From positions 1-64,000 of the forward strand of contig CAIUTB010000153.1 in NCBI GenBank assembly GCA_903901975.1: DNA of 64,000 nt. Reading direction: 5' to 3'. The translations under genes were made by a program, and so were the position numbers. Under the pieces are notes generated by a model. It made no database searches and had not been told where the DNA came from. It worked only from the letters and a program-made list of their open reading frames with translations. The stretch is from an uncultured Bacteroidales bacterium. GTDB lineage: Bacteria > Bacteroidota > Bacteroidia > Bacteroidales > Paludibacteraceae. Shown piece by piece: positions 16,932-64,000 of the stretch. The first letter of the stretch is position 1. Each line of letters opens with the position of its first letter.

Positions 16932-17756
16932 ATGAAAAAAACTTATATAATTATTTTCATTTTGTTTTTATTAATTCAAATTAGTAAAAGTCAAACTGTT
17001 GATCGAAAACTTGCTGTTGGATTTTCCATCAGTAAAAATCTATATGTGGGTGATTATGGTGGTAATGGAATATATGACTTTGGACATTCGGAATTTACAC
17101 AAGGATATTTGTCAGGCGGCCTTTCTTTAGGATTATATATATCTCCTGCAATTGAATTAGGCATTCAGGCTAATTACGGGGATTATGGGTATTGGAATAC
17201 TGATGATTTTACGAACCGATATATCAAACCAATTTACGGTGATGTTGGAGTTCCTTGCAGTTTTTTGGCAATGAAGTACCAGGCAACCACTTCCATAAAA
17301 TATAAATTCCATTTTATAAATGAAGATGACCATTTTGTGCCTTTTATAACAGTTGGAATGGGTATTGCTGGTTATGCAAGGAATACCGTGAAAGATCATG
17401 GTACTTATCCAAGATTAGATGATAAAGGTAATGATTTAATTGTTCCATTTGGAGCCGGTTTCAAGTATCTGTTTTCTGATAAAATAGCAATACAATACCA
17501 ATACCTTTACAATTTAACTAATAGCGATGTTCATGATACACACATGAGTAGTAATGATATAAAATATACTGGATATTCAGATTATGATTTTGAACATAAT
17601 AAACCTGGGAATGATGCCTTTGGAGAACATGTATTCAGTATAATTTACACCTTTGATATAGATCCAACTTTCGATAGATATCATCCCTGGAGATCGACAA
17701 AATATAAAGGTTATAAAAATGCGAGTTGGAAAAATTATAAGTATCGACATTACTAA
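16932..17756 (+). CDS. Outer-membrane beta-barrel protein, unknown function
   Basis: A 274-residue protein with a clear signal peptide (MKKTYIIIFILFLLIQISKS). The mature part shows alternating aromatic-rich beta-strands with Gly/Asp/Tyr turns (KLAVGFSISKNLYVGDYGG, SGGLSLGLYISPAIELGIQA, VPFGAGFKYLFSDKIAIQYQ), as in small OmpW/OmpA-like porin-fold barrels. The C-terminal tail is basic and Tyr-rich (RSTKYKGYKNASWKNYKYRHY is its general character), and there is no OmpA peptidoglycan-binding domain. It is separated from GH20 by about 250 bases and ends at a strong terminator. No substrate can be inferred. Confidence 0.7.
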   Translation: MKKTYIIIFILFLLIQISKSQTVDRKLAVGFSISKNLYVGDYGGNGIYDFGHSEFTQGYLSGGLSLGLYISPAIELGIQANYGDYGYWNTDDFTNRYIKPIYGDVGVPCSFLAMKYQATTSIKYKFHFINEDDHFVPFITVGMGIAGYARNTVKDHGTYPRLDDKGNDLIVPFGAGFKYLFSDKIAIQYQYLYNLTNSDVHDTHMSSNDIKYTGYSDYDFEHNKPGNDAFGEHVFSIIYTFDIDPTFDRYHPWRSTKYKGYKNASWKNYKYRHY

Positions 17757-17760
17757 CATA

Positions 17761-17798
17761 AAAAAAGGCCTCAGAAAAAATTTTCTGAGGCCTTTTTT
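17761..17798. terminator. Bidirectional terminator between the barrel gene and recQ
   Basis: A perfect 18-bp inverted repeat with a 2-base loop: arms AAAAAAGGCCTCAGAAAA and TTTTCTGAGGCCTTTTTT. A-tract and T-tract flanks on both sides let it end both the plus-strand barrel gene and the minus-strand recQ gene. Confidence 0.92.
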
Positions 17799-17811
17799 GA
17801 ATCAACTAGTA

Positions 17812-20004
17812 TTAATTCCCAATTTCAGAAAGAAACTTAATTCGTACCAATCGTACTTCAGTTTCACTAAAATCATCTTCTCCTAATTCATTAAGTGCCG
17901 CATCAATTTTATCGGTCTCAGCAGTGCTGAAATAATCAAATATTTCATCCACATGATCTAAGTCCATGATTTCCTGTAGAAAATAATCTATATTTATTTT
18001 TGTGCCTGAATATACTATTGCTTCAATTTCGTCGAGGAGTTCAAAAATATCTAGTCCCTTGGAAAGAGCAATATCGTCAAGAGCTATTTTACGATCAATA
18101 GCCTGTATAATTGAAACTTTCAACTTAGACTTATTGGCCACAGTACGCACCCGTAAATCTTCCGGACGAATAATTTCGTTTTCTTTTACATGTTCCTTAA
18201 TTACTTTCAAAAACTCTTCACCATAGCGTTTGGCTTTCCCTGCACCCACTCCCGGAATATTTTGCAATTCGTCCATCGTAATCGGGTAACTTGTCGCCAT
18301 AGCTTCTAGCGATGGGTCCTGGAAAATCACAAAAGGTGGGACTTCAAGTTTTTTTGACAATTTTTTTCGTAAATCTTTCAGAATAGAAAACAAAACATCG
18401 TCGGCAGCACATGTTCCACCACTACTTTTCCCACCGACATTCGATTCATCATCATCATCCTCAAATTCATTATCTTTTACAATTTGGAATGGACTTGGTT
18501 TTTTGATATACGCTTTGCCGGAATGAGTTATCCTTAATAAGCCGTAATTTTCTATTTCTTTGGTAATATAGCCAGCTATCATTGCCTGACGGATTACGGC
18601 GTGCAGCAATCGTTCATCTTCGTCAGAAGCAGAACCAAAGTTCTCCAGTTCGTCATGTTGATACGATTTTACATCTGAACTTTCATTCCCTTTTAGAATG
18701 TCAACAATGTGTTCAGCTTTGAATTTTTCTTTAACTAGTTGAATTGTTTCTAAAACAAGCAAAAGCAATTCTTGTCCTTCAATAAATTTTCGTGGTTTCA
18801 TACAGTTATCACAGCATCCACAGTTGTCTTCCTGATATTCTTCACCAAAATAGTGAAGCAATAATTTTCGTCTGCAGATGGAAGATTCGGCATAGGCCTG
18901 CGTTTCCAATAATAGTTGATTGCCAATTTCCTGCTCAGCAACTGGTTTGCCTTGCATAAATTTGCGTAGTTTATCTAAATCTTTATAAGCGTAAAAAGCA
19001 ATACATTGTCCCTCACCGCCATCGCGACCACCACGACCAGTTTCCTGATAATAGCCTTCCAGACTTTTAGGCATATCGTAATGCAAAACATAACGCACAT
19101 CGGGTTTATCAATTCCCATTCCGAAAGCAATGGTTGCCACAATGACTTCCACTTTTTCCATCAAAAAACTATCCTGATTCTGACTTCTCATGGCCGAATC
19201 CATTCCTGCGTGATAAGGAAGGCAAGAAATACCGTTCATGCTAAGTGTTTCAGATAATTCTTCCACTTTTTTTCGGCTCAGGCAATAAATAATCCCTGAT
19301 TTTCCAGCTTGTGAACGAATATATTTTATAATGTCTTTGTCTACATTTGTAGTTTTTGGACGAACTTCGTAGTACAAGTTGGCTCTGTTAAACGACGATT
19401 TGTAAATCGTTGCATTTAACATGCCAAGGTTTTTCTGAATATCGTGTTGAACTTTGGGAGTAGCAGTCGCTGTCAGAGCAATAAGTGGGGCAGAACCAAT
19501 ATCATTAATAATCGGGCGAATTCGCCTATATTCAGGGCGGAAATCATGTCCCCATTCCGAAATGCAATGTGCTTCGTCGACTGCGTAAAATGATACTTTA
19601 ATTTGTTTCAAAAACTCAATATTCTCATCTTTAGTCAATGATTCGGGCGCCACGTAAAGCAATTTTGTTTTCCCCGAAACAATATCCGCCTTTACTGCAT
19701 CTATAGCCTGACGTGTAAGTGATGAATTTATAAAGTGAGCTACACCATCTTCTTCACTAAAATTCCGCATGGCATCTACCTGATTTTTCATCAAGGCAAT
19801 AAGGGGAGAAATTACCACTGCAGTTCCTTCCAAAATAATCGAGGGTAGTTGGTAGCACAATGATTTACCGCCTCCAGTAGGCATTAACACGAATGTGTCA
19901 TTCCCATCAAGTACGTTTTGAATTATTGCTTCCTGATTTCCTTTGAAGTTGTCAAAACCGAAGTTCTTTTTCAACTGCACAGATAATTCCGACAATTTGG
20001 CCAT
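17812..20004 (-). CDS. recQ: ATP-dependent DNA helicase RecQ
   Basis: A 3'-5' helicase used in recombination and repair of stalled forks. The 730-residue protein has motif 0/I (LMPTGGGKSLCYQLP), the DEAH box (VDEAHCISEWGHDF), motif VI (QETGRGGRDG), the RecQ-Ct zinc site (CRRK, CGCCDNC), a winged helix, and an HRDC-like domain around residues 520-600, with a further helical C-terminal extension. It is longer than the E. coli enzyme, as usual in Bacteroidota. A TACTTTCG box lies about 30 bases upstream. Confidence 0.96.
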   Translation of the reverse strand: MAKLSELSVQLKKNFGFDNFKGNQEAIIQNVLDGNDTFVLMPTGGGKSLCYQLPSIILEGTAVVISPLIALMKNQVDAMRNFSEEDGVAHFINSSLTRQAIDAVKADIVSGKTKLLYVAPESLTKDENIEFLKQIKVSFYAVDEAHCISEWGHDFRPEYRRIRPIINDIGSAPLIALTATATPKVQHDIQKNLGMLNATIYKSSFNRANLYYEVRPKTTNVDKDIIKYIRSQAGKSGIIYCLSRKKVEELSETLSMNGISCLPYHAGMDSAMRSQNQDSFLMEKVEVIVATIAFGMGIDKPDVRYVLHYDMPKSLEGYYQETGRGGRDGGEGQCIAFYAYKDLDKLRKFMQGKPVAEQEIGNQLLLETQAYAESSICRRKLLLHYFGEEYQEDNCGCCDNCMKPRKFIEGQELLLLVLETIQLVKEKFKAEHIVDILKGNESSDVKSYQHDELENFGSASDEDERLLHAVIRQAMIAGYITKEIENYGLLRITHSGKAYIKKPSPFQIVKDNEFEDDDDESNVGGKSSGGTCAADDVLFSILKDLRKKLSKKLEVPPFVIFQDPSLEAMATSYPITMDELQNIPGVGAGKAKRYGEEFLKVIKEHVKENEIIRPEDLRVRTVANKSKLKVSIIQAIDRKIALDDIALSKGLDIFELLDEIEAIVYSGTKINIDYFLQEIMDLDHVDEIFDYFSTAETDKIDAALNELGEDDFSETEVRLVRIKFLSEIGN

Positions 20005-52703: not shown

Positions 52704-53924
52704 ATGAAAAAAACAATTACTCTTCTATTTATCGCTCTTTGTAGTCTCAGCGTTTATTCTGCTGATTTGGTATTGAATAATTTTAATGACATTACCTGTG
52801 TTACAGGTACTTCAGGTTCTTTTGGAAGTACAATGAACACTGTTAACGGTGAAGGAGTTATTACAGTTCCAGCTAATAATACCGGTGAATATATTTATTT
52901 TTCACTACCTGCCGGGTTTGATGTAAATCCGTATCAGTTTTTAAAAATCTCAGTGAAGTCAACCGAAACAAATTATCGTTTTGTTCCTTCATTATTAACT
53001 CCGGAATGGACCGAATCGTCGGATTGGAATGGCTCTTATAAATACACAGGAGCCGGAGCATGGCAGGATATTTATATTGCATTGAGTGGTATGACTGCAG
53101 GTACTGCGGGAACTTATGATAAGATAGCCATTAAAATAGCCGCCTATGATTCGAAGCCTTCGTTTGATTTGTATATCGACAATGTTACGTTTATGGCTAA
53201 GTATGTGCCTGATTACACAAAAAATGTGATTGTTTGTAACTTCGACAATGTAATTGCGCCAATGGGAGCTTGGGGCAATAATACTATTTCTCAAACAATT
53301 AATGTTGATGGTACTGGAAATATTGGAACAGTGTCTGTGCCTGCAAATAATGATGGCGGTATCACCTTTAATACTGTTGATAAGATAAATACAACAACAC
53401 ACGACAAAATTAACTTTAGAGTGTTGGCATCGCAAGCATTTACGATCAATTTTGAGAAACTGGAAGACAAGACAAACAGTGCCATAAATGCAGCCTTGGG
53501 ATTGTATCCAGCTTACACAACCCCTAACGAATGGCAAGAACTGTCAATGGATATTTCAGCAGTAGCCAGCAATACATACGATAAAATAGTGTTGTTTGCT
53601 GAGGCATGGCAGAGTAAACCCGCCTTTACGTTTTATATAGACGACATTATATTGATGAAAAAAGGACTAACTGCAGTTGATATAGCGTCTGATTCTAAAA
53701 CTTCAATGTTTTACACTTCACTTCAAAACACGTTGAACATAAAATGCGATGGAGATGCATTGCTGGAATTGATAACACTTACGGGAGTTGTGACAAAAAC
53801 TGTAAATATTCACGGAGACACAACATTAAAATTATCGGACATTCAAAATGGTGTTTACATTGTTCGACTGAAGAATTCAGGTACTTGGGCTGTTCAGAAA
53901 ATAATAGTTGGAAACGCATTGTAA
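52704..53924 (+). CDS. T9SS-exported A-B module protein, putative carbohydrate-binding
   Basis: A 406-residue secreted protein with no catalytic motif. Signal peptide residues 1-20 (LLFIALCSLSVYSA). Module A (about 21-165: DLVLNNFNDITC to SFDLYIDNVTF) and module B (about 172-325: NVIVCNFDNVI to AFTFYIDDIIL) look like diverged copies of one jelly-roll, each ending in F-x-x-YID-[DN]. They resemble galactose-binding-like carbohydrate modules, but I cannot assign a CBM family. The C-terminal ~75 residues (ISVYTSLQNT-like to KIIVGNAL) form a T9SS sorting domain. It is a close paralog of the next gene. Confidence 0.75.
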   Translation: MKKTITLLFIALCSLSVYSADLVLNNFNDITCVTGTSGSFGSTMNTVNGEGVITVPANNTGEYIYFSLPAGFDVNPYQFLKISVKSTETNYRFVPSLLTPEWTESSDWNGSYKYTGAGAWQDIYIALSGMTAGTAGTYDKIAIKIAAYDSKPSFDLYIDNVTFMAKYVPDYTKNVIVCNFDNVIAPMGAWGNNTISQTINVDGTGNIGTVSVPANNDGGITFNTVDKINTTTHDKINFRVLASQAFTINFEKLEDKTNSAINAALGLYPAYTTPNEWQELSMDISAVASNTYDKIVLFAEAWQSKPAFTFYIDDIILMKKGLTAVDIASDSKTSMFYTSLQNTLNIKCDGDALLELITLTGVVTKTVNIHGDTTLKLSDIQNGVYIVRLKNSGTWAVQKIIVGNAL

Positions 53925-53966
53925 CCATTATAAATTTATATTAAATAGCTTTTAATAAGGCAAATG

Positions 53967-54000
53967 CCATCCTGATCGTAATTCAGGATGGTATTTTTTT
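53967..54000 (+). terminator. Terminator after the first A-B gene
   Basis: CCATCCTGA and TCAGGATGG form a 9-bp stem with a 7-base loop, followed by a run of T. A diverged copy of the same hairpin lies at 57474-57506. Confidence 0.8.
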
Positions 54001-54020
54001 TGAAAAACAGAGCATAACTA

Positions 54021-54085
54021 TTCAAGAAAGTATAATCAATTGACTGAATTCTGTAACAAACAATGAAAAATCACATCTATTTTTG
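54021..54085 (+). promoter_or_regulatory. Shared upstream block, copy 2, with -7 box
   Basis: TTCAAGAAAGTATAATCA then ATTGACTGAATT, TGTAA and the -7 box TATTTTTG at 54078-54085. It is nearly identical to copy 1 through CAATGAAAAATCACATCTAT and lies 103 bases before the ATG at 54189, the same distance as copy 1. Confidence 0.65.
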
Positions 54086-54188
54086 TATCGTTAATTATTT
54101 ATTTTAAAAATCAACATTAACAACGATCAACTTTTACCATTCAGACGATCCTTTAGCAATTAATTCAAACATTTAAAATCAAATTATT

Positions 54189-55412
54189 ATGAAAAAAACT
54201 ATTACTCTTCTTTTTATTACTCTTTGTAGTTTCAGCGTTTATTCTGCTGATTTAGTATTGAATAATTTTAATGATATTACGTGTTATACGGGTGTTTCTG
54301 GTTCTTTTGGAAGTACAATGACCACAGTCAACGGTACAGGAGTTATTACTGTTCCTGCTAATAATACCGGCGAATACATTTATTTTTCGCTACCTGCCGG
54401 TTTTGATGTAAATCCGTATCAATTTTTGAAAATTAGTGTGAAGTCAACTGAAACTAACTATCGTTTTGTGCCTGGACTCATTACGCCGGCCTGGACTTCA
54501 TCCGAAGATTGGACTGGTACGTATAAATATACCGGTGCCAATGCGTGGCAGGATATTTATATTCCGCTGAGTGCTATGACGGCTGGTAGTGCAGGAACGT
54601 ATGACAAGATAGCACTGAAAGTTGCGGTTTATGATTACAAGCCATCTTTTGATATGTACATTGACAATGTTACGTTTGTGGCGAAGTATGTGCCTGATTA
54701 TTCAAAGGATGTGATTGTTTGTAATTTCGATAATGTGATTGCGACAATGGGTGGGTTTAGTAGCAATACTATTTCAACAACAATTAATCCGAATGGCACA
54801 GGAAATGTGGGAGTTGTATCTGTTCCTGCAAATAATGCCGGCGGAATAGCAGTTAATACTATTGATAAAATTAATACAGCTACTCATAACAAAATCAGCT
54901 TTAAAGTATATGCTTCACAGGCATTTACCATTAATTTTGAGAAACTGGAAGACAAGACAAACAATGCCATAAATACAGCATTGGGATTATATCCTGCTTA
55001 CACTACTCCTAATCAATGGCAAACGTTGACCATGGATATTTCTGCAGTAACTACTAATACCTATAGTAATATTGTCTTGTTTGCTGAGGCGTGGCAGAGT
55101 AAACCCGCTTTTACATTTTATATCGACGACATTACCTTAGTAAAGAATGGAATTGTTTCTGCTGTTGATATAGCGTCTGATGCTAAAACTTCTGTGTATT
55201 ACTCTTCATTACAAAACACGTTGAACATAAAATGTGAGGGAGATGGCTTGCTGGAATTGATAACACTTACGGGAGTTGTAACAAAAAGTGTAAATATGCA
55301 CGGTGATACAACTTTAGAATTATCGGATATAAAGAATGGAGTTTATCTTGTTCGCCTTAAGAATTCAGGAAGGCAGGACATACAGAAAATAATTGTCAGC
55401 AATAAATTGTAA
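54189..55412 (+). CDS. T9SS-exported A-B module protein, paralog
   Basis: A 407-residue paralog of the 52704 gene with the same order: signal peptide (1-20), module A (21-165), module B (172-326), T9SS domain (about 332-407). Conservation is high throughout, including stretches of near-identical DNA in the sorting-domain region and upstream block, pointing to recent tandem duplication. Differences cluster in loop residues, for example SEDWTG versus SSDWNG, which might alter ligand choice. No catalytic residues. Stand-alone binding proteins of this type could capture a glycan at the surface for the enzymes encoded next. Confidence 0.75.
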   Translation: MKKTITLLFITLCSFSVYSADLVLNNFNDITCYTGVSGSFGSTMTTVNGTGVITVPANNTGEYIYFSLPAGFDVNPYQFLKISVKSTETNYRFVPGLITPAWTSSEDWTGTYKYTGANAWQDIYIPLSAMTAGSAGTYDKIALKVAVYDYKPSFDMYIDNVTFVAKYVPDYSKDVIVCNFDNVIATMGGFSSNTISTTINPNGTGNVGVVSVPANNAGGIAVNTIDKINTATHNKISFKVYASQAFTINFEKLEDKTNNAINTALGLYPAYTTPNQWQTLTMDISAVTTNTYSNIVLFAEAWQSKPAFTFYIDDITLVKNGIVSAVDIASDAKTSVYYSSLQNTLNIKCEGDGLLELITLTGVVTKSVNMHGDTTLELSDIKNGVYLVRLKNSGRQDIQKIIVSNKL

Positions 55413-55443
55413 TTCAGTAGAAAAAGAAAAGAATTCAAATAGA

Positions 55444-55479
55444 AGAGGCTGTCTTAAATCAATATTTGGGATGGCCTCT
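55444..55479 (+). terminator. Weak hairpin after the second A-B gene
   Basis: AGAGGC and GCCTCT, partly extended inward, form a stem in the gap before the GH26 gene. There is no long T-run, so it may attenuate rather than end transcription, allowing readthrough into GH26. Confidence 0.4.
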
Positions 55480-55497
55480 ATTCTATAAAGTGAAAAA

Positions 55498-57432
55498 ATG
55501 AAGAAGCTTTTACAACTCTTTACTCTGTTTTTTTTGTTTGCAACTACTTTGATGGGAAAGGGTAAGGTAAATGGATTGCCTGAGCAGATTGAATCAAAAA
55601 TAAGTGCAATTATACCGGATACTTTGTGTTTGCTGGATAAAAGCAGCACGGCAGAAACCAAAGCACTTTACTCCCAGTTGTGGAAAATCCCCGAAAAAGG
55701 ATTTATGTTTGGACATCACGACGACTTGATTTATGGCAGGAAATGGTACAATGTGGCCGGTGGTTCTGATACAAAAGATGTTTGTGGCGATTATCCCGGA
55801 GTTTTCAGTGTGGACTTTGCCGAAGTGATGGATGACCGATGTAATAATAATACCGATAATCCTATTCGTTTACGAGTTATTAAGGAAGCCCGTGCTCGTG
55901 GTGAGGTGATTACTGCATGTTGCCATTTAAACAACCCAATCACCAATGGTGATGCCTGGGATGTTTCAAATACTACAGTAGCAAAACAAATTGTGACCAA
56001 TGGTAGCGCCACCAATATTCGTTTTAAGCTATGGCTCGATAGACTGGCGGCTTTTGCGGCAACATTAAAAGACAATCAGGGGAATTTAATCCCAATTATT
56101 TTTCGCCCTTTCCATGAACATACTCAATCCTGGTCGTGGTGGGGATCTACCTGTACTACGCAAGAAGAATTTATAAATCTCTGGCGTTTTACAGTATCTT
56201 ATTTACGCGATACCAAAGGCGTTCATCAGTTTATTTATGCCATATCACCTCAATTGGATGGACTTCAAACCATTAATGACATTCTATTCCGCTGGCCGGG
56301 AGATGATTATGTGGATTTTATTGGCATGGATTGCTATCATGGACTTTATACTGATGCATTTAAGGAAAATCTTTTAAATCTTTCCATACTATCACAACTA
56401 AAGAAAAAACCCTGTGGAGTAACTGAAACGGGAATAGAAGGAATAATAAATGCGGATGGGTCTGATTGTACTGACTATTGGACGAAGCAAATACTTGCTC
56501 CACTTAGCGGGCAACGGGTTAGTATGGTGGTTATGTGGCGAAATAAATATGATCCTAGCCTGACAGGAACACATTACTATTCAGTTTTCAGCGGACAGGC
56601 ATCAGTGACTGATTTTATGACTATGTATACTAGTCCTGTTAGTTTGTTTAGTAAGGATTTACCTTCCATGTATGTGATGGCCGATGGGGTAAGTATTGTA
56701 GATAATTATATTCCAACTTATGGAAGCAATATCATCGTTTGTAATTTCGATAATGTGATTTCGCCAATGAGTGGATTTAGCAGCAATACGATTACAACCG
56801 TTAACAATCCAAGTGGTACAGCGAAAGTAGGACTCGTTTCCGTACCGTTGAGGAATGTAGGAGGTATTACATTTACAGCTGTTGATAAAATTAATACAAT
56901 AATACGCGATAAAATTAACTTTAAAGTATACGCATCAAAAGCATTTAATTTTACTTCCGGGAAGCTGGAAGACCAAACCAACAGTACTATTAATCAATCC
57001 ATGACGTTGAATCTTGCTTACACAACTCCCAATAAGTGGCAGGAACTATCTATGGATGTGTCATCAATAAGCAGTAATACCTACGACAGGATAGTGTTGT
57101 TTCCCGAAGCATGGTCGAATAAATCAGCTTTCAGTTTTTATATTGATGACATCACATTGGTTAAAAATTATCTTATTTCCGGAACTGAAGTAAATAAGCC
57201 TGCAGATTCAGAAATTCGTTATTCAGCGGCACAACATAGCTTATACATAAAATGCAAAGGCGAAGGATGGCTGGAGTTGATATCACTTTCAGGGAAAATA
57301 GTGAGAAGTTATCGAATAAATGCTGATGAGACAATTGAATTATCAGGCTTATCAAATGGTGTTTATATCGTTCGTTTAAAGAGTTCAGACACACGAACTG
57401 TTCAAAAAATAACAATTGGAAATGCATTGTAA
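55498..57432 (+). CDS. GH26 beta-mannanase with B module and T9SS domain
   Basis: A 644-residue secreted enzyme predicted to cleave beta-mannan or a related glycan. After a signal peptide (about 1-20) comes the GH26 barrel (about 50-395): FMFGHHDDLIYGRKWYN, the acid/base Glu207 in FRPFHEHTQSWSWWG and the nucleophile Glu310 in GVTETGIEG, with VVMWRNKYD after it. A single B-type module follows (about 405-555, IIVCNFDNVISPMSGF to AFSFYIDDITL), then a T9SS sorting domain (565-644). The B module matches those of the neighbouring A-B proteins, so enzyme and binding proteins probably see the same glycan. It has no copy of the shared upstream block. Confidence 0.9.
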   Translation: MKKLLQLFTLFFLFATTLMGKGKVNGLPEQIESKISAIIPDTLCLLDKSSTAETKALYSQLWKIPEKGFMFGHHDDLIYGRKWYNVAGGSDTKDVCGDYPGVFSVDFAEVMDDRCNNNTDNPIRLRVIKEARARGEVITACCHLNNPITNGDAWDVSNTTVAKQIVTNGSATNIRFKLWLDRLAAFAATLKDNQGNLIPIIFRPFHEHTQSWSWWGSTCTTQEEFINLWRFTVSYLRDTKGVHQFIYAISPQLDGLQTINDILFRWPGDDYVDFIGMDCYHGLYTDAFKENLLNLSILSQLKKKPCGVTETGIEGIINADGSDCTDYWTKQILAPLSGQRVSMVVMWRNKYDPSLTGTHYYSVFSGQASVTDFMTMYTSPVSLFSKDLPSMYVMADGVSIVDNYIPTYGSNIIVCNFDNVISPMSGFSSNTITTVNNPSGTAKVGLVSVPLRNVGGITFTAVDKINTIIRDKINFKVYASKAFNFTSGKLEDQTNSTINQSMTLNLAYTTPNKWQELSMDVSSISSNTYDRIVLFPEAWSNKSAFSFYIDDITLVKNYLISGTEVNKPADSEIRYSAAQHSLYIKCKGEGWLELISLSGKIVRSYRINADETIELSGLSNGVYIVRLKSSDTRTVQKITIGNAL

Positions 57433-57473
57433 ATATTAATAAATTATCTTAAATAGCTTTTAATTAAGCAAAT

Positions 57474-57506
57474 ACCATTCTGACAATTATTCAGGATGGT
57501 ATTTTT
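57474..57506 (+). terminator. Terminator after the GH26 gene
   Basis: ACCATTCTGA and TCAGGATGGT pair (one wobble) with a 7-base loop and a following T-run. It is a diverged copy of the hairpin at 53967-54000, and the flanking sequence is also duplicated. Confidence 0.75.
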
Positions 57507-57527
57507 TGATAAAACAGAGCATAAATG

Positions 57528-57592
57528 TTCAAGAAAGTATAATCATTTGACTGAATTGTGTAATTCCGGCAATTGCTATACCTATATTTTTG
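57528..57592 (+). promoter_or_regulatory. Shared upstream block, copy 3, with -7 box
   Basis: GTTCAAGAAAGTATAATCA, then TTTGACTGAATT and TGTAA, identical to the core of copies 1 and 2. After that the sequence diverges, but a -7 box TATTTTTG lies at 57585-57592, 62 bases before the ATG at 57654. Retention of only the core and the -7 box supports a functional regulator site. Confidence 0.65.
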
Positions 57593-57653
57593 TAACTTAA
57601 ATAAGTTGCTACAATCTCCATTCGACTATTGTGTTAATTTTAAATTTAATATC

Positions 57654-60600
57654 ATGAAAAAACTATTCTTTTTATTCGGCTTAATGGCAGGCTTAGTGAG
57701 CTTGAATGCTCAAACATTATCGCAAAGTTTTCTTTTCGACTTTGGACCTGTAGCCACTACGCCAACTAATAATGGTGACATTACACCATCACCTGATGCT
57801 AATGGTAAGTATTGGAATAACATTGCTAGCGGTACGGGTAGCAATAGTATTGCAGCGGGTGTAGCTTTTACCGCATTAGTAAATACTGCCAATACAGCTT
57901 CAACTTATGCATTAACAACAACTGTAGCAGGATTCGTCCCCAATGGATTACAAAATGGAGGACTAAGAACACCTTATGCCTCTCAGTTTACTGCCGGGGG
58001 TAGTGATACTGACCTTGCAATAGCTACTGCTACCGAAGATTTCTGGTATGCAACATCTGCTACTTCGCCTGCATTTAAAATCACAGGATTAAACCCTGCA
58101 AAACGTTATAAGTTTAAGATTTTTGGTTCTCGCACGGGTGATATTGTGAAAACATCCAGGTATACCATTGTTGGTGCTGCTTCAACTGTTGGAACACTAA
58201 ACTCATCTAACACCGCTGCATCTCTTTCGTATGGTACCGTTTATTCACTTGCTACGGGCTATAATGCTAATAGCAATAATGGGTATCAACTTACCAGTGG
58301 TGGTTCTTACACAACGTCGACTGCATATACCGGGAATAATCGTTATACCTATGTGACTGATTATATTACTCCATTAAATGTGTCTGGCTCAGGTCAATTT
58401 ACTTTAACATTGACAGATGCAAGTCCTACCGCTCAAAATACTTTTCTCAATTGCATGAAAATGGAAGAGTATAAAGGAACTCAAACCATTAGCTTTGCTA
58501 CTTTAACATCAAAAGCTGTTGGTGATGCAGACTATGCACCCGGTGCAACTGCCAGTTCGGGATTGGCAGTAAGGTATGAAAGTTCCAGCCCATCTGTCGC
58601 TATAATTGTTGACGGGAAAATTCAAATCGTAGGGGTAGGAAATACAACTATCACGGCTTTTCAAGACGGAGATGCTACATACGAAGCTGCCACAAGCGTG
58701 CCACAAACATTGAATGTGAGTGCTTCACTGACAGCACAAACCATTACATTTGGAGCATTGTCTGCTAAAACTACCGGCGATGCACCCTTTGATCTAACAG
58801 CCACTGCCACTTCAGGATTAACGGTATCGTATAGCAGTTCCAATACTGCTGTAGCTACCATTTCGGGAAGTACAGTTACTATTGTAGGCGGTGGAACTAC
58901 CGATATTACAGCATCTCAGGCAGGAAACAGCACATATTCTGCAGCTCCTAATGTAATTCAGACATTGACCGTAAATAAACAAAATCAAACCATTACTTTC
59001 GGAGCACTTAGCTCTAAAACCGATGCAGATGCCCCTTTCACGGTTTCACCATCGAGTACTTCGGGACTGGCAGTCACGTTGACAAGTTCCAATACCGACG
59101 TGGCATTGGTAAGTGGAAGTACGATAACGATAGTAGGTTCGGGAACCTCTACTATCACCGCTTCACAAGCGGGAAATACTATTTATAATGCAGCTACCAG
59201 CATACCACAAACATTAACGGTAAGTTCAGTTCTGTCGGTAAATCAAAGTTTTCTTTTCGACTTTGGACCAGTTACTGGTTCAGCTGGTGATATAACATCA
59301 TCACCTGACGCTAAAGGAAATTATTGGAATAATATTACTGGCCCTGCTGCGAATGCTTCTGTTTCCGGTTTAGTAAATACCGCAAATACAGCTTCAACGT
59401 ATGCTTTAACAACTACTGTGGGATTCACCGCTGCAGGATTATCAAACGGAGGTTTAAGAACACCATATGCCTCTCAGTTTACCGCCGGAGGTAGTGACAC
59501 AGACCTTGCTATTGGTACTGCTACTGAAGATTTTTGGTTTGGTTCATCTACCAGTAATTCAGCATTCAAAATCACAGGATTAAACCCTGCAAAACGCTAT
59601 AAGTTTAAGATTTTTGCATCTCGTGCTGGTGATATATTAAAAACAACCAGATATACCATTGTGGGGGCTGCTACTACAATTGGAACTCTAAATGCATCTA
59701 ATACAGCTGCATCCCTCTCTTATGGTACCGTTTATTCGCTTACCACTGGTTATAATATACTTAGTAATAACGGGTATAAACTTACAGATACTGATCCATT
59801 ATACACTTTGTCGACTGTTTATACCGGGAATAATAGTAATACATACGTGACTGGTTTAATTAATCCATTAGATGTATCAGGATCAGGTCAATTTACTTTG
59901 ACCTTGACAGATGCTAGTCCTGCCGCACAAAATACTTTTATTAACTGTATGAAAATAGAAGAATATGCAACTGCCCAAACCATAACTTTTGGAGCTTTGA
60001 GTACTAAAAATTATGGAGATGCCGATTTTGCGCCGGGGGCTTCAGCCAGCTCAAGCTTGAGTGTACATTACACTAGCTCTAATACCAGTGTAGCAACCAT
60101 TGTTTCAGATCAGATTCATATTGTGGGAGCTGGCACCTCAACAATTACCGCTTCGCAGGCAGGCGATACAAATTATAGTCCGGCAACCAATGTTTCACAA
60201 ACCCTGACCGTAAACACAAAATCCTTAACAGCTATATCTTCGGCAACTGCTTCTGATAAAGTGTATGACGGCTCAACAGCAGCAGTAATTACTGGTACAT
60301 TCACCGGTATTGTTGAAGGTGATGCAGTAAACTTAAGCGGAACATTTGCTGATGCCAATATAGGTTCCGGTAAAACAGTTACAGCAAGTTCAACTTTGGG
60401 AGGAGCACAAGCAGCAAAATACATTTTTACAGGCACGCTCCCGAGTGGATTGACCGCTTCTATCACTGCTGCTTCTGCAAGCAGTACTGGTGGAAATATC
60501 AGTGCATCAGGAATATCGGAAACGGATTTGCTTAATACAAATCTAACCGTTTCTTCCGGCGAACTTGTTATCAATCAGGCTTCAACCATTCATGCTTTAA

Positions 60601-62084
60601 CTGTAGCACCTGGAGCAAAACTGACACTTAATTTAAATCAATCGTTGTCGGTTGTTGGTGCGTTGACCCTTCAAAGTGATGCCACGCTCGGGACTGCTAC
60701 ATTTATTGATAATGGTGGAACAATCAGTACCGGTACTGCCACTGTTCAACAATATCTCACTGCCGGTCGTAACTGGTATATCAGTAGTCCTGTAAATGCT
60801 GCAACAGCGGCAGTATTTAATCCGGCAGGTGGTTCTAATAAACTGTATTGGTATGATGAAACAAAAGGAAGTGTTGTTTTACCGGAAACTCCATGGACAG
60901 CTATTTCTCTGAACACTACCGGTCTTACCGCCACTCAGGGCTATGTAGCCAATATGGCTGCTGATGGGGTAGTTAGTTTTAGCGGCACACTTAATACAGG
61001 TTCTTTGCCTACCACGACTATTAATCGTAGTGATATTCCGACAAATGCAGGGTTCAATTTAGTCGGTAATCCATATCCTTCTTACCTGGATTGGGATCAG
61101 GTATCGGCAGCATCAACCCACTTGTTGACCACCATCTGGCAGCGTACGAAAACGATTGATAATACTACATATCAGTTTGACACCTATAACAATTTAGGTA
61201 AAATGTATATCAGCAATAGTGGAAAAACGGTAAACAGTCATATTCCACCTATGCAGGCTTTCTGGGTACGGGTTGATAACGGATATAACTCCGGGACTTT
61301 GAATTTTACAAATGCTATGCGTTCACACAAAGGTTCTCAGAATACAGGTACGGTTGAAACTCCCAATGTGATTAATGATCCGATTTTCAAGTCAAAGGCA
61401 ACCAATGCAGTTTCACAAACTATATTGCGTCTTCAGGTTTCGAACGGATCAAACACAGATGAAACGGTGGTTTACAGCAATCCGGATGCATTGAATAGTT
61501 ATGATAATTTTGATTCACCAAAAATGTTTAATAACTCGACATCGATAGCCGAAATTTATACCCAGGCAGGTAGCGAACAATTGGCTATTAATGGATTGAA
61601 TGCTATTCCTTACGATACTGAAATGCCATTGGGATTCAAGACTTTAGTTGCAGGAAATTTCAGTATTAAAGCCTCACAAGTAGCTAGTTTTGAATCAGGA
61701 ACTAAAGTAATTCTTAAAGACTATGCAGACCCAACTTATCCAATTGTTGCTGACCTGACGGATGGTAGTAGCTATTTATTCAGTTCGGCTGCTTCGAATA
61801 ATACCAGTCGTTTCACTTTGTTGTTCCGGTCACCATCAGTAGTTACAGGAATAAATCCTGAAACTAATAACAATGTATGGATTTCAATCCGTAACGGACA
61901 AATAGTAATTAATGGCACTTCAAACGGAGGAATGTTTGATGTATTTAATGCCATTGGACAGAGAATCATTTCAAAAAATCTGACAGGAACAACTGTACAA
62001 CAGAATATTGACTTACCTGGTGTTTATCTGGTGAAGATAACAAATGAAGGTAAGAGTATAACGAGAAAAATAATTGTTGATTAA
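57654..62084 (+). CDS. Giant T9SS-exported repeat protein (adhesin-like)
   Basis: A secreted protein of 1476 residues, starting at the ATG at 57654 with the signal peptide MKKLFFLFGLMAGLVSLNAQ. Domain order: an X module of ~250 residues (SFLFDFGP, DITPSPDANGKYWNN), three Ig-like repeats of ~80 residues (pattern QTITFGALSAKT, then SSNTAVATISGS and TITASQAG), a second X module, a fourth Ig-like repeat, a YDG-type domain (SDKVYDGSTAAVITGTFTGI), a beta-strand-rich linker region (about 950-1230, GFNLVGNPYPSYLDW) and a T9SS sorting domain. It has no recognised catalytic site. A surface adhesin or glycan-binding scaffold is the best guess; the X module is unassigned. Confidence 0.8.
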   Translation: MKKLFFLFGLMAGLVSLNAQTLSQSFLFDFGPVATTPTNNGDITPSPDANGKYWNNIASGTGSNSIAAGVAFTALVNTANTASTYALTTTVAGFVPNGLQNGGLRTPYASQFTAGGSDTDLAIATATEDFWYATSATSPAFKITGLNPAKRYKFKIFGSRTGDIVKTSRYTIVGAASTVGTLNSSNTAASLSYGTVYSLATGYNANSNNGYQLTSGGSYTTSTAYTGNNRYTYVTDYITPLNVSGSGQFTLTLTDASPTAQNTFLNCMKMEEYKGTQTISFATLTSKAVGDADYAPGATASSGLAVRYESSSPSVAIIVDGKIQIVGVGNTTITAFQDGDATYEAATSVPQTLNVSASLTAQTITFGALSAKTTGDAPFDLTATATSGLTVSYSSSNTAVATISGSTVTIVGGGTTDITASQAGNSTYSAAPNVIQTLTVNKQNQTITFGALSSKTDADAPFTVSPSSTSGLAVTLTSSNTDVALVSGSTITIVGSGTSTITASQAGNTIYNAATSIPQTLTVSSVLSVNQSFLFDFGPVTGSAGDITSSPDAKGNYWNNITGPAANASVSGLVNTANTASTYALTTTVGFTAAGLSNGGLRTPYASQFTAGGSDTDLAIGTATEDFWFGSSTSNSAFKITGLNPAKRYKFKIFASRAGDILKTTRYTIVGAATTIGTLNASNTAASLSYGTVYSLTTGYNILSNNGYKLTDTDPLYTLSTVYTGNNSNTYVTGLINPLDVSGSGQFTLTLTDASPAAQNTFINCMKIEEYATAQTITFGALSTKNYGDADFAPGASASSSLSVHYTSSNTSVATIVSDQIHIVGAGTSTITASQAGDTNYSPATNVSQTLTVNTKSLTAISSATASDKVYDGSTAAVITGTFTGIVEGDAVNLSGTFADANIGSGKTVTASSTLGGAQAAKYIFTGTLPSGLTASITAASASSTGGNISASGISETDLLNTNLTVSSGELVINQASTIHALTVAPGAKLTLNLNQSLSVVGALTLQSDATLGTATFIDNGGTISTGTATVQQYLTAGRNWYISSPVNAATAAVFNPAGGSNKLYWYDETKGSVVLPETPWTAISLNTTGLTATQGYVANMAADGVVSFSGTLNTGSLPTTTINRSDIPTNAGFNLVGNPYPSYLDWDQVSAASTHLLTTIWQRTKTIDNTTYQFDTYNNLGKMYISNSGKTVNSHIPPMQAFWVRVDNGYNSGTLNFTNAMRSHKGSQNTGTVETPNVINDPIFKSKATNAVSQTILRLQVSNGSNTDETVVYSNPDALNSYDNFDSPKMFNNSTSIAEIYTQAGSEQLAINGLNAIPYDTEMPLGFKTLVAGNFSIKASQVASFESGTKVILKDYADPTYPIVADLTDGSSYLFSSAASNNTSRFTLLFRSPSVVTGINPETNNNVWISIRNGQIVINGTSNGGMFDVFNAIGQRIISKNLTGTTVQQNIDLPGVYLVKITNEGKSITRKIIVD
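57711..58470 (+). repeat. Intragenic direct repeat, X module copy 1
   Basis: This ~750-bp stretch encoding the first X module is repeated at about 59241-59960. Long runs are nearly identical (for example the DNA for RTPYASQFTAGGSDTDLAI and KITGLNPAKRYKFKIF), implying an internal duplication. Confidence 0.7.
59241..59960 (+). repeat. Intragenic direct repeat, X module copy 2
   Basis: Second copy of the X-module segment, slightly shorter than copy 1 and separated from it by the three Ig-like repeats. Confidence 0.7.
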
Positions 62085-62201
62085 TTTAGCTAAGTAATTT
62101 GTTGTTTTTGTTTGCAAAATTCAGGTCTCATTACTCCAAAAGAGTAAGGGACATGAATTAACAAATTAACTAGACCAATTAATTTTTAAAACTCTAAAAC
62201 C

Positions 62202-62369
62202 ATGGAAGCACCAAATCAGGAGTATTTAGCTCCTCAAATTGAGCGTATTGAACTGGATAATGAAATAGCCTTACAGCTTGAATCAACTCCACCCTATGCA
62301 CCCGGCGAAACTAAATTAAATGCACCGGAGTATTTATATAACGATCCATTTAAAACGAATCAAGTGTGA
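62202..62369 (+). CDS. Small acidic ORF (55 residues) after the giant adhesin
   Basis: An ORF of 55 codons starting MEAPNQEYLAPQIERIELDN, which begins 117 bases after the adhesin stop. It is rich in Pro, Glu and Leu, with a YLAPQIERIELD segment and a C-terminal APEYLYNDPFKTNQV. Small Bacteroidales proteins with an aPxIExIEL-type pattern are common but of unknown role. No signal peptide or transmembrane segment is evident. A hairpin follows the stop codon, so it is probably a real, expressed gene. Translation is not proven. Confidence 0.55.
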   Translation: MEAPNQEYLAPQIERIELDNEIALQLESTPPYAPGETKLNAPEYLYNDPFKTNQV

Positions 62370-62396
62370 TATTCATATATTGGATTAAAGATAAAG

Positions 62397-62428
62397 GTTT
62401 ATTAAAGAATGTTTTATCTTTAATAAAC
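62397..62428 (+). terminator. Hairpin after the small ORF
   Basis: GTTTATTAAAGA and TCTTTAATAAAC form a perfect 12-bp stem with an 8-base loop, 28 bases after the small ORF. AT-rich with no strong T-run, so it may stabilise a 3' end rather than terminate strongly. Confidence 0.5.
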
Positions 62429-62566
62429 TCCAATAATTTAAATTAATATTGCAGGCAATTAATACTAAATTGTAAGTTATTATATATCAACTAAAGTAAC
62501 TTATTTAATTGAAGGATTAATGTTTTGATTTTCAAAATAATACAATCATTTAGCCATATTAGCTAA

Positions 62567-62595
62567 TTGCGATAAGAAAAATAACAGTATGTTTG
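62567..62595 (+). promoter_or_regulatory. Promoter of the A-B-esterase gene
   Basis: TTG (62567-62569), 18 bases, TATGTTTG (62588-62595), 62 bases before the ATG at 62658. It fits the Bacteroidota consensus apart from slightly short spacing. The shared upstream block seen at the other A-B genes is absent here. Confidence 0.5.
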
Positions 62596-62657
62596 TAGCT
62601 AATTTTTTGCAGATATCTGTGAATCAGTTTTGGGTATAAATCTTTTAAATAGTAAAA

Positions 62658-64000
62658 ATGAAAAAAACAATTGTTTTGGTATGCATTATTCTTTGTAATG
62701 TAAGTCTTTATTCTGCTGATTTAGTGTTGAACAATTTCAATGACATTACCTGCTATACGGGTGTCTCCGGTGCTTTTGGAAGTACCATGACTACAGTTAA
62801 TGGAACCGGAAAAATAACGGTGCCTGCCAATAATACAGGTGAGTATATCTACTTTACGCTGCCTGTAGGATTTGATGTAAATCCTTATCAGTTTTTAAAA
62901 ATCAGTGTGAAGTCAACCGAAACAAACTATCGTTTTGTGCCTGGATTCATTACGCCGGAATGGACTTCATCCGAAGATTGGACAGGCACCTATAGATATA
63001 CCGGTGCAGGAGCGTGGCAGGATGTTTATATTTCACTGAGTGGTATGACTGCAGGTAGTGCAGGAACATACAATATGGTAGCGTTAAAAATCGCCTCTTA
63101 TGACTCGAAACCTTCGTTCGATTTGTATATTGATAATGTAACGTTTGTCGAAAAATATGTGGCTGATTATACAAAAGATGTGATAGTATCTAACTTCGAT
63201 AATGTAATTTCACCTACAGGTGCGTGGGGAAATAATACGGTTTCGATAGCAGCTACTCCCAGTGGTACCGGAAATGCAGGATTAGTATCGGTTCCGGCAA
63301 GCAATACCGGCGGTATAACATTTAACCTGACGAATAAAATAAATACCGCCGTGCATGAAAAACTAAAATTTAAAGTATTTTCAACACAGGCATTTACAAT
63401 TTCACTTATAAAATTGGAAAGTAAAGCCAACAATACAGTATATCAACAGATTGCACAATACCTGGCCTATTCAACTCCAAACCAATGGCAAGACTTCTCG
63501 CTTGATCTTACGGCTTATGGAGCCAATTTGTATGATGTAATTACAATTATGCCAATGGCCTGGGCAAATGCACCTGCTTTTACATTTTATATGGACGATG
63601 TAATGCTTGCAGTAAAACCGGTATATAATACAGTTACGCTACCCAATGTTTTCTCCAGTAATATGGTGATACAACAAAATATGCAAGTAGCACTTTGGGG
63701 ATGGGCATTGGCAAATGAAAATGTTGATATTACCGCAAGCTGGGGGCAGACTGCAACTGCAAAAGCCGGAACTGATGGCAAATGGAGTACCACGATTCAA
63801 ACACCAAAAGCCATTCCTGGTCAACCAACGCCCTATACCCTCACTTTTAAAGGCACAACCAACACAGTTCAACTCAGTAATGTATTAATCGGTGATGTGT
63901 GGGTTTGCTCAGGACAATCGAACATGGAATACAACATGAATGTTGTCTCGGGAGGTACCAGAGGAGTGAAAAACTATGCTACAGAAATAGCGGCAGCTAA
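62658..64000 (+). CDS. A-B module protein fused to sialate O-acetylesterase-like domain (3' end missing)
   Basis: The gene is open to the end of the window (447 codons so far). A signal peptide (LVCIILCNVSLYSA, cut near 20) is followed by module A (21-165) and module B (about 172-325), close relatives of those at 52704 and 54189. After residue ~330 begins an SGNH/GDSL domain of the sialate 9-O-acetylesterase type: TLPNVFSSNMVIQQNMQVAL, WSTTIQTPKA and the nucleophile block VWVCSGQSNMEYNM with its Ser. It should therefore remove O-acetyl groups from a sugar. The T9SS domain, if any, lies beyond the window. Confidence 0.85.
   Translation, partial: MKKTIVLVCIILCNVSLYSADLVLNNFNDITCYTGVSGAFGSTMTTVNGTGKITVPANNTGEYIYFTLPVGFDVNPYQFLKISVKSTETNYRFVPGFITPEWTSSEDWTGTYRYTGAGAWQDVYISLSGMTAGSAGTYNMVALKIASYDSKPSFDLYIDNVTFVEKYVADYTKDVIVSNFDNVISPTGAWGNNTVSIAATPSGTGNAGLVSVPASNTGGITFNLTNKINTAVHEKLKFKVFSTQAFTISLIKLESKANNTVYQQIAQYLAYSTPNQWQDFSLDLTAYGANLYDVITIMPMAWANAPAFTFYMDDVMLAVKPVYNTVTLPNVFSSNMVIQQNMQVALWGWALANENVDITASWGQTATAKAGTDGKWSTTIQTPKAIPGQPTPYTLTFKGTTNTVQLSNVLIGDVWVCSGQSNMEYNMNVVSGGTRGVKNYATEIAAA

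Follow-up and report, generated by a model that had tools for sequence, protein, structure and literature searches.

Near its end, the 64,000-nucleotide stretch of DNA analysed here (hereafter the window) contains four open reading frames in which two modules, A and B, recur next to different partners. This raises the question of what these modules are and which glycan they might bind. The original observation of shared A and B modules was confirmed: the four open reading frames are as it described them and together contain seven modules (three A and four B):

P1, 52704..53924, + strand: putative signal peptide (by eye), A, B and T9SS CTD; a module-only protein
Module A of P1, 52761..53201, + strand
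Module B of P1, 53226..53663, + strand
T9SS type A sorting domain of P1, 53742..53909, + strand; 33.3 bits, cut-off 23
P2, 54189..55412, + strand: putative signal peptide (by eye), A, B and T9SS CTD; tandem duplicate of P1
Module A of P2, 54246..54686, + strand; CIA30 match of 24.5 bits, cut-off 24
Module B of P2, 54711..55148, + strand
T9SS type A sorting domain of P2, 55230..55397, + strand; 30.5 bits
P3, 55498..57432, + strand: GH26 beta-mannanase, B and T9SS CTD
GH26 catalytic domain match of P3, 55639..56355, + strand; Pfam E = 3e-38
Module B of P3, 56731..57168, + strand
T9SS type A sorting domain of P3, 57271..57417, + strand; 39 bits
P5, first part, 62658..64000, + strand: putative signal peptide (by eye), A, B and the start of a SASA esterase
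Module A of P5, 62715..63155, + strand
Module B of P5, 63180..63617, + strand

Module-bearing proteins and the A/B family

P1 and P2 indeed consist of modules plus a sorting domain and contain no enzyme. P5 was expected to be an A-B-esterase protein, and this order was correct for its SASA esterase (PF03629; E = 2.5e-17). However, the open reading frame of P5 continues past the window as far as contig position 65294, where it closes with a CTD of its own (contig 65070-65285). Hence, all four module proteins carry a CTD (TIGR04183, over the cut-off in each), which identifies them as T9SS type A cargo. The genome also encodes the T9SS pore SprA (SprA_N, 646 bits), in line with the export route originally proposed. 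A signal peptide would take these proteins through the inner membrane and the T9SS through the outer membrane, with retention on or near the cell surface. Matches to the NCBIfam family T9SS_DNase fell far under the cut-off; they span the CTD and also the end of B (most in P2).

The A modules (147 amino acids) are 82-87% identical to each other, and the B modules (146 amino acids) 48-79%. At the level of their sequences, A and B are homologous: they are 23-31% identical (BLAST E = 8e-8 to 1e-12), and their alignment score exceeded that of all 300 shuffles in 12 of 12 pairs (z = 14-20). The idea that they are copies of one fold ending in F-x-x-YID-[DN] thus held for the homology and, by model, for the fold, while the motif is exact in six of the seven modules and reads F-x-x-YMDD in B of P5. 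A search of the whole genome gave seven matches at E values up to 0.001, which are the seven known modules. Module A had no match in any of 47 other genomes of the same genus, so the A-B pair is rare even within the genus.

Selection on both modules is purifying. For pairs with a computable dS, dN/dS was 0.06-0.12 in A and 0.11-0.31 in B, at high dS. A was more constrained than B in pairs with P5, and the comparison of P1 with P2 gave 0.12 in both modules. The greater likeness of A than of B between P5 and the other proteins might point to recent gene conversion of the A block, but this was rejected: synonymous divergence is high in both modules, and constraint therefore explains the likeness of A better. 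P1 and P2 are a tandem duplication, which includes about 175 upstream bases over which their likeness continues.

A first structural model, built from three rows, was weak (pLDDT 63.9). A later model of the A-B pair of P2, built from 66 rows, reached a pLDDT of 80.5, with about 91 in B, lower values in A and poor values (41-49) in the first 30 residues of A. The predicted structure suggests a beta-sandwich fold shared by A and B that resembles PDB 8qx6, CBM11 and a CBM22 pair. Foldseek ranked a CBM22 tandem first and 8qx6 43rd; TM-scores by target were 0.67 for 8qx6 and 0.59 for CBM11. Because two domains were superposed together, the whole-pair matches have a large rmsd, and single-domain matches are more telling. 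Many non-CBM beta-sandwich proteins (reelin, meprin, insecticidal proteins) ranked over 8qx6. Hence, the fold alone is no proof of sugar binding.

Relatives of the modules

The modules were originally not recognised as an existing CBM family. No Pfam CBM family passed the cut-off in the four window proteins. However, a profile of B, A and their relatives matched 8qx6 (E = 9.3e-13), the closest solved relative by sequence; the structure library gives its title as 'Novel laminarin-binding CBM X584'. We take the family of 8qx6 to be CBM102 and its source organism to be Christiangramia forsetii; the X584 work is reportedly the founding study of CBM102. A profile confined to A, B and the GH5-linked rows, i.e. 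the clade described below, matched 8qx6 at E = 0.0062 only. In PDB sequence searches, P2 alone gave no match, and the best E value for A alone was 0.97. Of the original interpretation as a whole, the lack of a known CBM relative did not hold, whereas the single family, the T9SS CTDs, the mannan context and the module exchange did. Besides its match in A of P2, CIA30 (PF08547) scored 13.4 in P1 and was not listed for P5 and P3. Pfam matches under the cut-off include MAM and the surface glycan-binding protein B domain (E = 0.14, B of P2).

The narrow A/B alignment had no match in a collection of genome contigs. With the wider alignment, the same collection yielded at least 138 relatives, nearly all from Bacteroidota among the matches listed, and 80 of these were kept for family comparison. 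In 91 open reading frames of loci L030-L110, the P5 esterase among them, 226 module matches were counted, often in tandem. Six of ten further proteins scanned had a PKD match, one of the six under the cut-off, and a protein elsewhere (L018) combines two modules with a CTD match just under the Pfam cut-off. A plasmid search gave no match. Two loci in other genomes of the class (L155 and L156) join modules of the wider family to calcineurin-like phosphoesterases that carry T9SS CTDs.

In a midpoint-rooted tree of 80 modules, A and B grouped with the mannanase-fused (GH5-linked) modules of other Bacteroidales at a support of 94/91, which is just under the starred level of the tree tool. A grouped with the GH5-linked modules at 100/99. 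The 8qx6 module and the genus's own esterase modules fell outside this clade. The mannanase fused to a clade module occurs in genomes G367, G430, G252 and G1177. For the G367 protein, which is presumably GH5_10, four of four PDB matches are beta-1,4-mannanases, and there was no Pfam match. Clade-level matches came from the same four genomes, that of G1177 by profile (E = 4e-60) rather than by the tree. The clade is present in three of 101 searched G367 relatives (G367, G430 and G1177). The nearest hundred genomes (query A) and the class and phylum samples (queries A, B and fused rows) gave no clade match besides the window's own, in searches that overlap and do not sum to a total of distinct genomes. 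The next best match in the class and phylum samples (E = 1e-15) was a PKD-bearing protein of the wider family.

The clade also has its own pattern of aromatic residues. At column 76 of the alignment, about 96% of the 70 other rows, 8qx6 included, have an aromatic residue (W, F or Y), whereas all 10 clade rows have G, D, A, V or T and none an aromatic; this column lies in a gapped region, A has a Tyr two columns later, and the 70 rows include some duplicates. Furthermore, three other columns are fixed in all 10 clade rows: 178 as Y, 233 as Y or W and 240 as F. In P2, column 233 corresponds to Y129 of A and W128 of B, and column 178 to Y95 of A and Y97 of B; the Phe at column 240 belongs to the end motif and may be structural. 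The fused rows share Trp 89 with A, and B lacks it. From these alignments we infer that columns 76, 233, 178 and 240 may line the sugar site.

Genome context and module exchange

Past the window, the locus completes the esterase and goes on to an AraC regulator, a symporter, a GH130, SusC, SusD and a TIM-barrel-like pair. It further holds a second GH26, a GDSL protein with a CTD and a GH2 of the mannosidase type. This content supports a beta-mannan-type locus. In all four other genomes with clade members, the modules likewise lie beside mannan enzymes. The fused mannanase of G367, G430 and G1177 adjoins a GH26 (61-63% identical) and a GH2 (45%). In G252, one contig begins with a module-CTD fragment, and the genes directly after it encode an AraC regulator, a symporter and a GH130 at 65-73% identity to their counterparts in the window's locus; a separate contig ends in a signal peptide plus the first portion of such a module.

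Several other features of these loci were observed. Two related TIM-barrel-like proteins (L030:15409-16923 and 16933-18420) have no Pfam match; a relative of them scores just under the Cellulase cut-off, and the mannan clusters of G1177, G367, G430 and G252 contain counterparts of one or both. They are possibly an undescribed mannan-active glycosidase. The genome has a second mannan-type locus without A/B modules (L231, G000:C169:22000-36000), with SusD-like, GDSL, GH26, GH130-like, MFS transporter and epimerase-like proteins, all named by eye except GH26. P4 (57573-62084) has two copies, 75% identical, of a second repeated module of about 250 amino acids that starts QSFLFDFGP. This module recurs at 31-46% in other proteins of the window locus and as short stretches in two proteins of the second mannan-type locus (sites 57573-62084, L030:3376-5802, L167:3663-7154 and L231:3881-6910), and it may be another unnamed binding module.

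Movement of the modules between enzymes is supported by two comparisons. The second GH26 of the locus is 76% identical to P3 but has no module, so that P3 differs from it by B-CTD. The esterase domain of P5 has six relatives at 53-71% identity (L063 and L016 being one gene), each of which carries one other module in the place of A-B, at 27-34% to the N-terminal part of P5. Here, the A-B pair probably replaced an older module.

A rival reading is that the modules do not bind a substrate at all. They would instead anchor the exported proteins to one another or to a surface polysaccharide that the cell itself makes, as T9SS cargo in which they accompany various enzymes or no enzyme, and with a fold that is common to many non-CBM proteins. 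We consider this unlikely, because a single mannan-type locus holds all seven copies in a genome with at least 150 CTD matches (every one of the 150 candidates scored, out of 232), and because clade members in two other families adjoin mannan enzymes.

The neighbouring genes also distinguish the clade from the rest of the family. GH16 was near 61 of 80 other family loci (tblastn E 1e-6; 80 kept of at least 138), while GH26, GH130 and the clade-type mannanase were near none of them, GH2 near one and SASA near two. In contrast, the five clade loci had GH16 near none, the mannanase near four, GH26 and GH2 near three each, GH130 near one and at least one mannan enzyme near all five; these loci span 10-19 kb versus at most 12.4 kb for the compared loci, and they represent four genomes, three of one genus, two of the five loci being stretches of one contig. 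The counts were obtained with three queries for GH16, two for GH26 and one for each other enzyme, of which the mannanase query was itself drawn from a clade locus, where it is fused to the module. The mannan link has few independent cases, since clade members outside the window come from only four genomes, three of one genus.

These counts also weigh on the idea that the modules still bind beta-glucan (laminarin or mixed-linkage) and that a mixed wall substrate accounts for the mannan context. That idea fits the match to 8qx6 in sequence and model and the GH16 neighbours of the wider family. It nevertheless appears quite improbable, given the absence of GH16 near the clade loci, the missing aromatic at column 76 and the fusion to GH26 or GH5-type mannanases.

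Candidate ligand and comparison with known systems

A reasonably probable explanation is that A and B are divergent, X584-related beta-sandwich CBMs whose clade has probably shifted to beta-mannan and serves on T9SS surface proteins and enzymes. It builds on what was observed of homology, clade and domain order, of the genome context, and of the CTDs and T9SS pore, whereas mannan as the ligand is suggested by context and clade, and a surface location and different roles for A and B are presumed. The ligand of the clade would be beta-mannan, perhaps acetylated gluco- or galactomannan. The module-only A-B proteins would hold mannan at the surface, and through their own modules the GH26 and the esterase would cut and deacetylate one and the same chain. 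Mannan would then be processed near the SusC/SusD importer encoded in the same locus. More specifically, we lean towards a clade of the X584 family that swapped its ligand to beta-mannan, as the common aromatic was lost and new ones were fixed. It would now serve as a targeting part that can be exchanged among GH26, GH5-type and SASA enzymes and free T9SS-borne mannan binders, and might represent a new CBM family or subfamily.

In a partial survey of the literature, the described comparison for such mannan-binding modules was CBM112, and an earlier description elsewhere is possible. CBM112 modules bind mannan, belong to GH26 proteins of Bacteroides and usually sit as inserts within the GH26 domain; like A/B, they occur in mannan loci, with GH26, GH5 and esterase partners and in module-only proteins (PMC13357471). 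Membership of A and B in this recently named family was rejected as highly improbable despite the similar partners, at an hhalign probability of 0.1% against the GH26 inserts of G078 and G084, which were taken as CBM112 by architecture only. The best matches of these two presumed members to A had E = 3e-4 (HMM) and E = 0.002 over 24 residues (BLAST), in tiny databases, and indicate no clear homology.

If the mannan reading is true, the clade and X584 would form a natural pair for how one CBM fold retunes from beta-1,3-glucan to beta-1,4-mannan, with the positions named. Module-only T9SS proteins, which are blank in the family libraries used here, would likewise gain a function, and mannan loci a marker. 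We regard the result as informative rather than startling: within a laminarin-CBM family, one branch probably binds mannan and is used as an interchangeable part.

Several known systems can be compared with these modules. CBM11, CBM22, CBM30 and CBM4 have a beta-sandwich fold like that of A/B according to Foldseek, but have no Pfam match over the cut-off in the window proteins. For CIA30, there is the borderline score in P2, with the other window proteins under the cut-off or unlisted. Set against surface glycan-binding proteins, module-only surface binders encoded next to susD, P1 and P2 are module-only but carry a T9SS CTD rather than being lipoproteins, and their genes do not adjoin susD. 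The window locus resembles the beta-mannan locus of Muricauda, which has GH26s, a GH130, an AraC regulator and a symporter (PMC9860051). CBM X584 is like A/B by profile homology and model, and its relatives often occur in tandem in Bacteroidota proteins. The clade differs from the X584 family in its aromatic pattern, in its separate place in the tree and in its occurrence in GH26/GH5-type mannan loci instead of near GH16.
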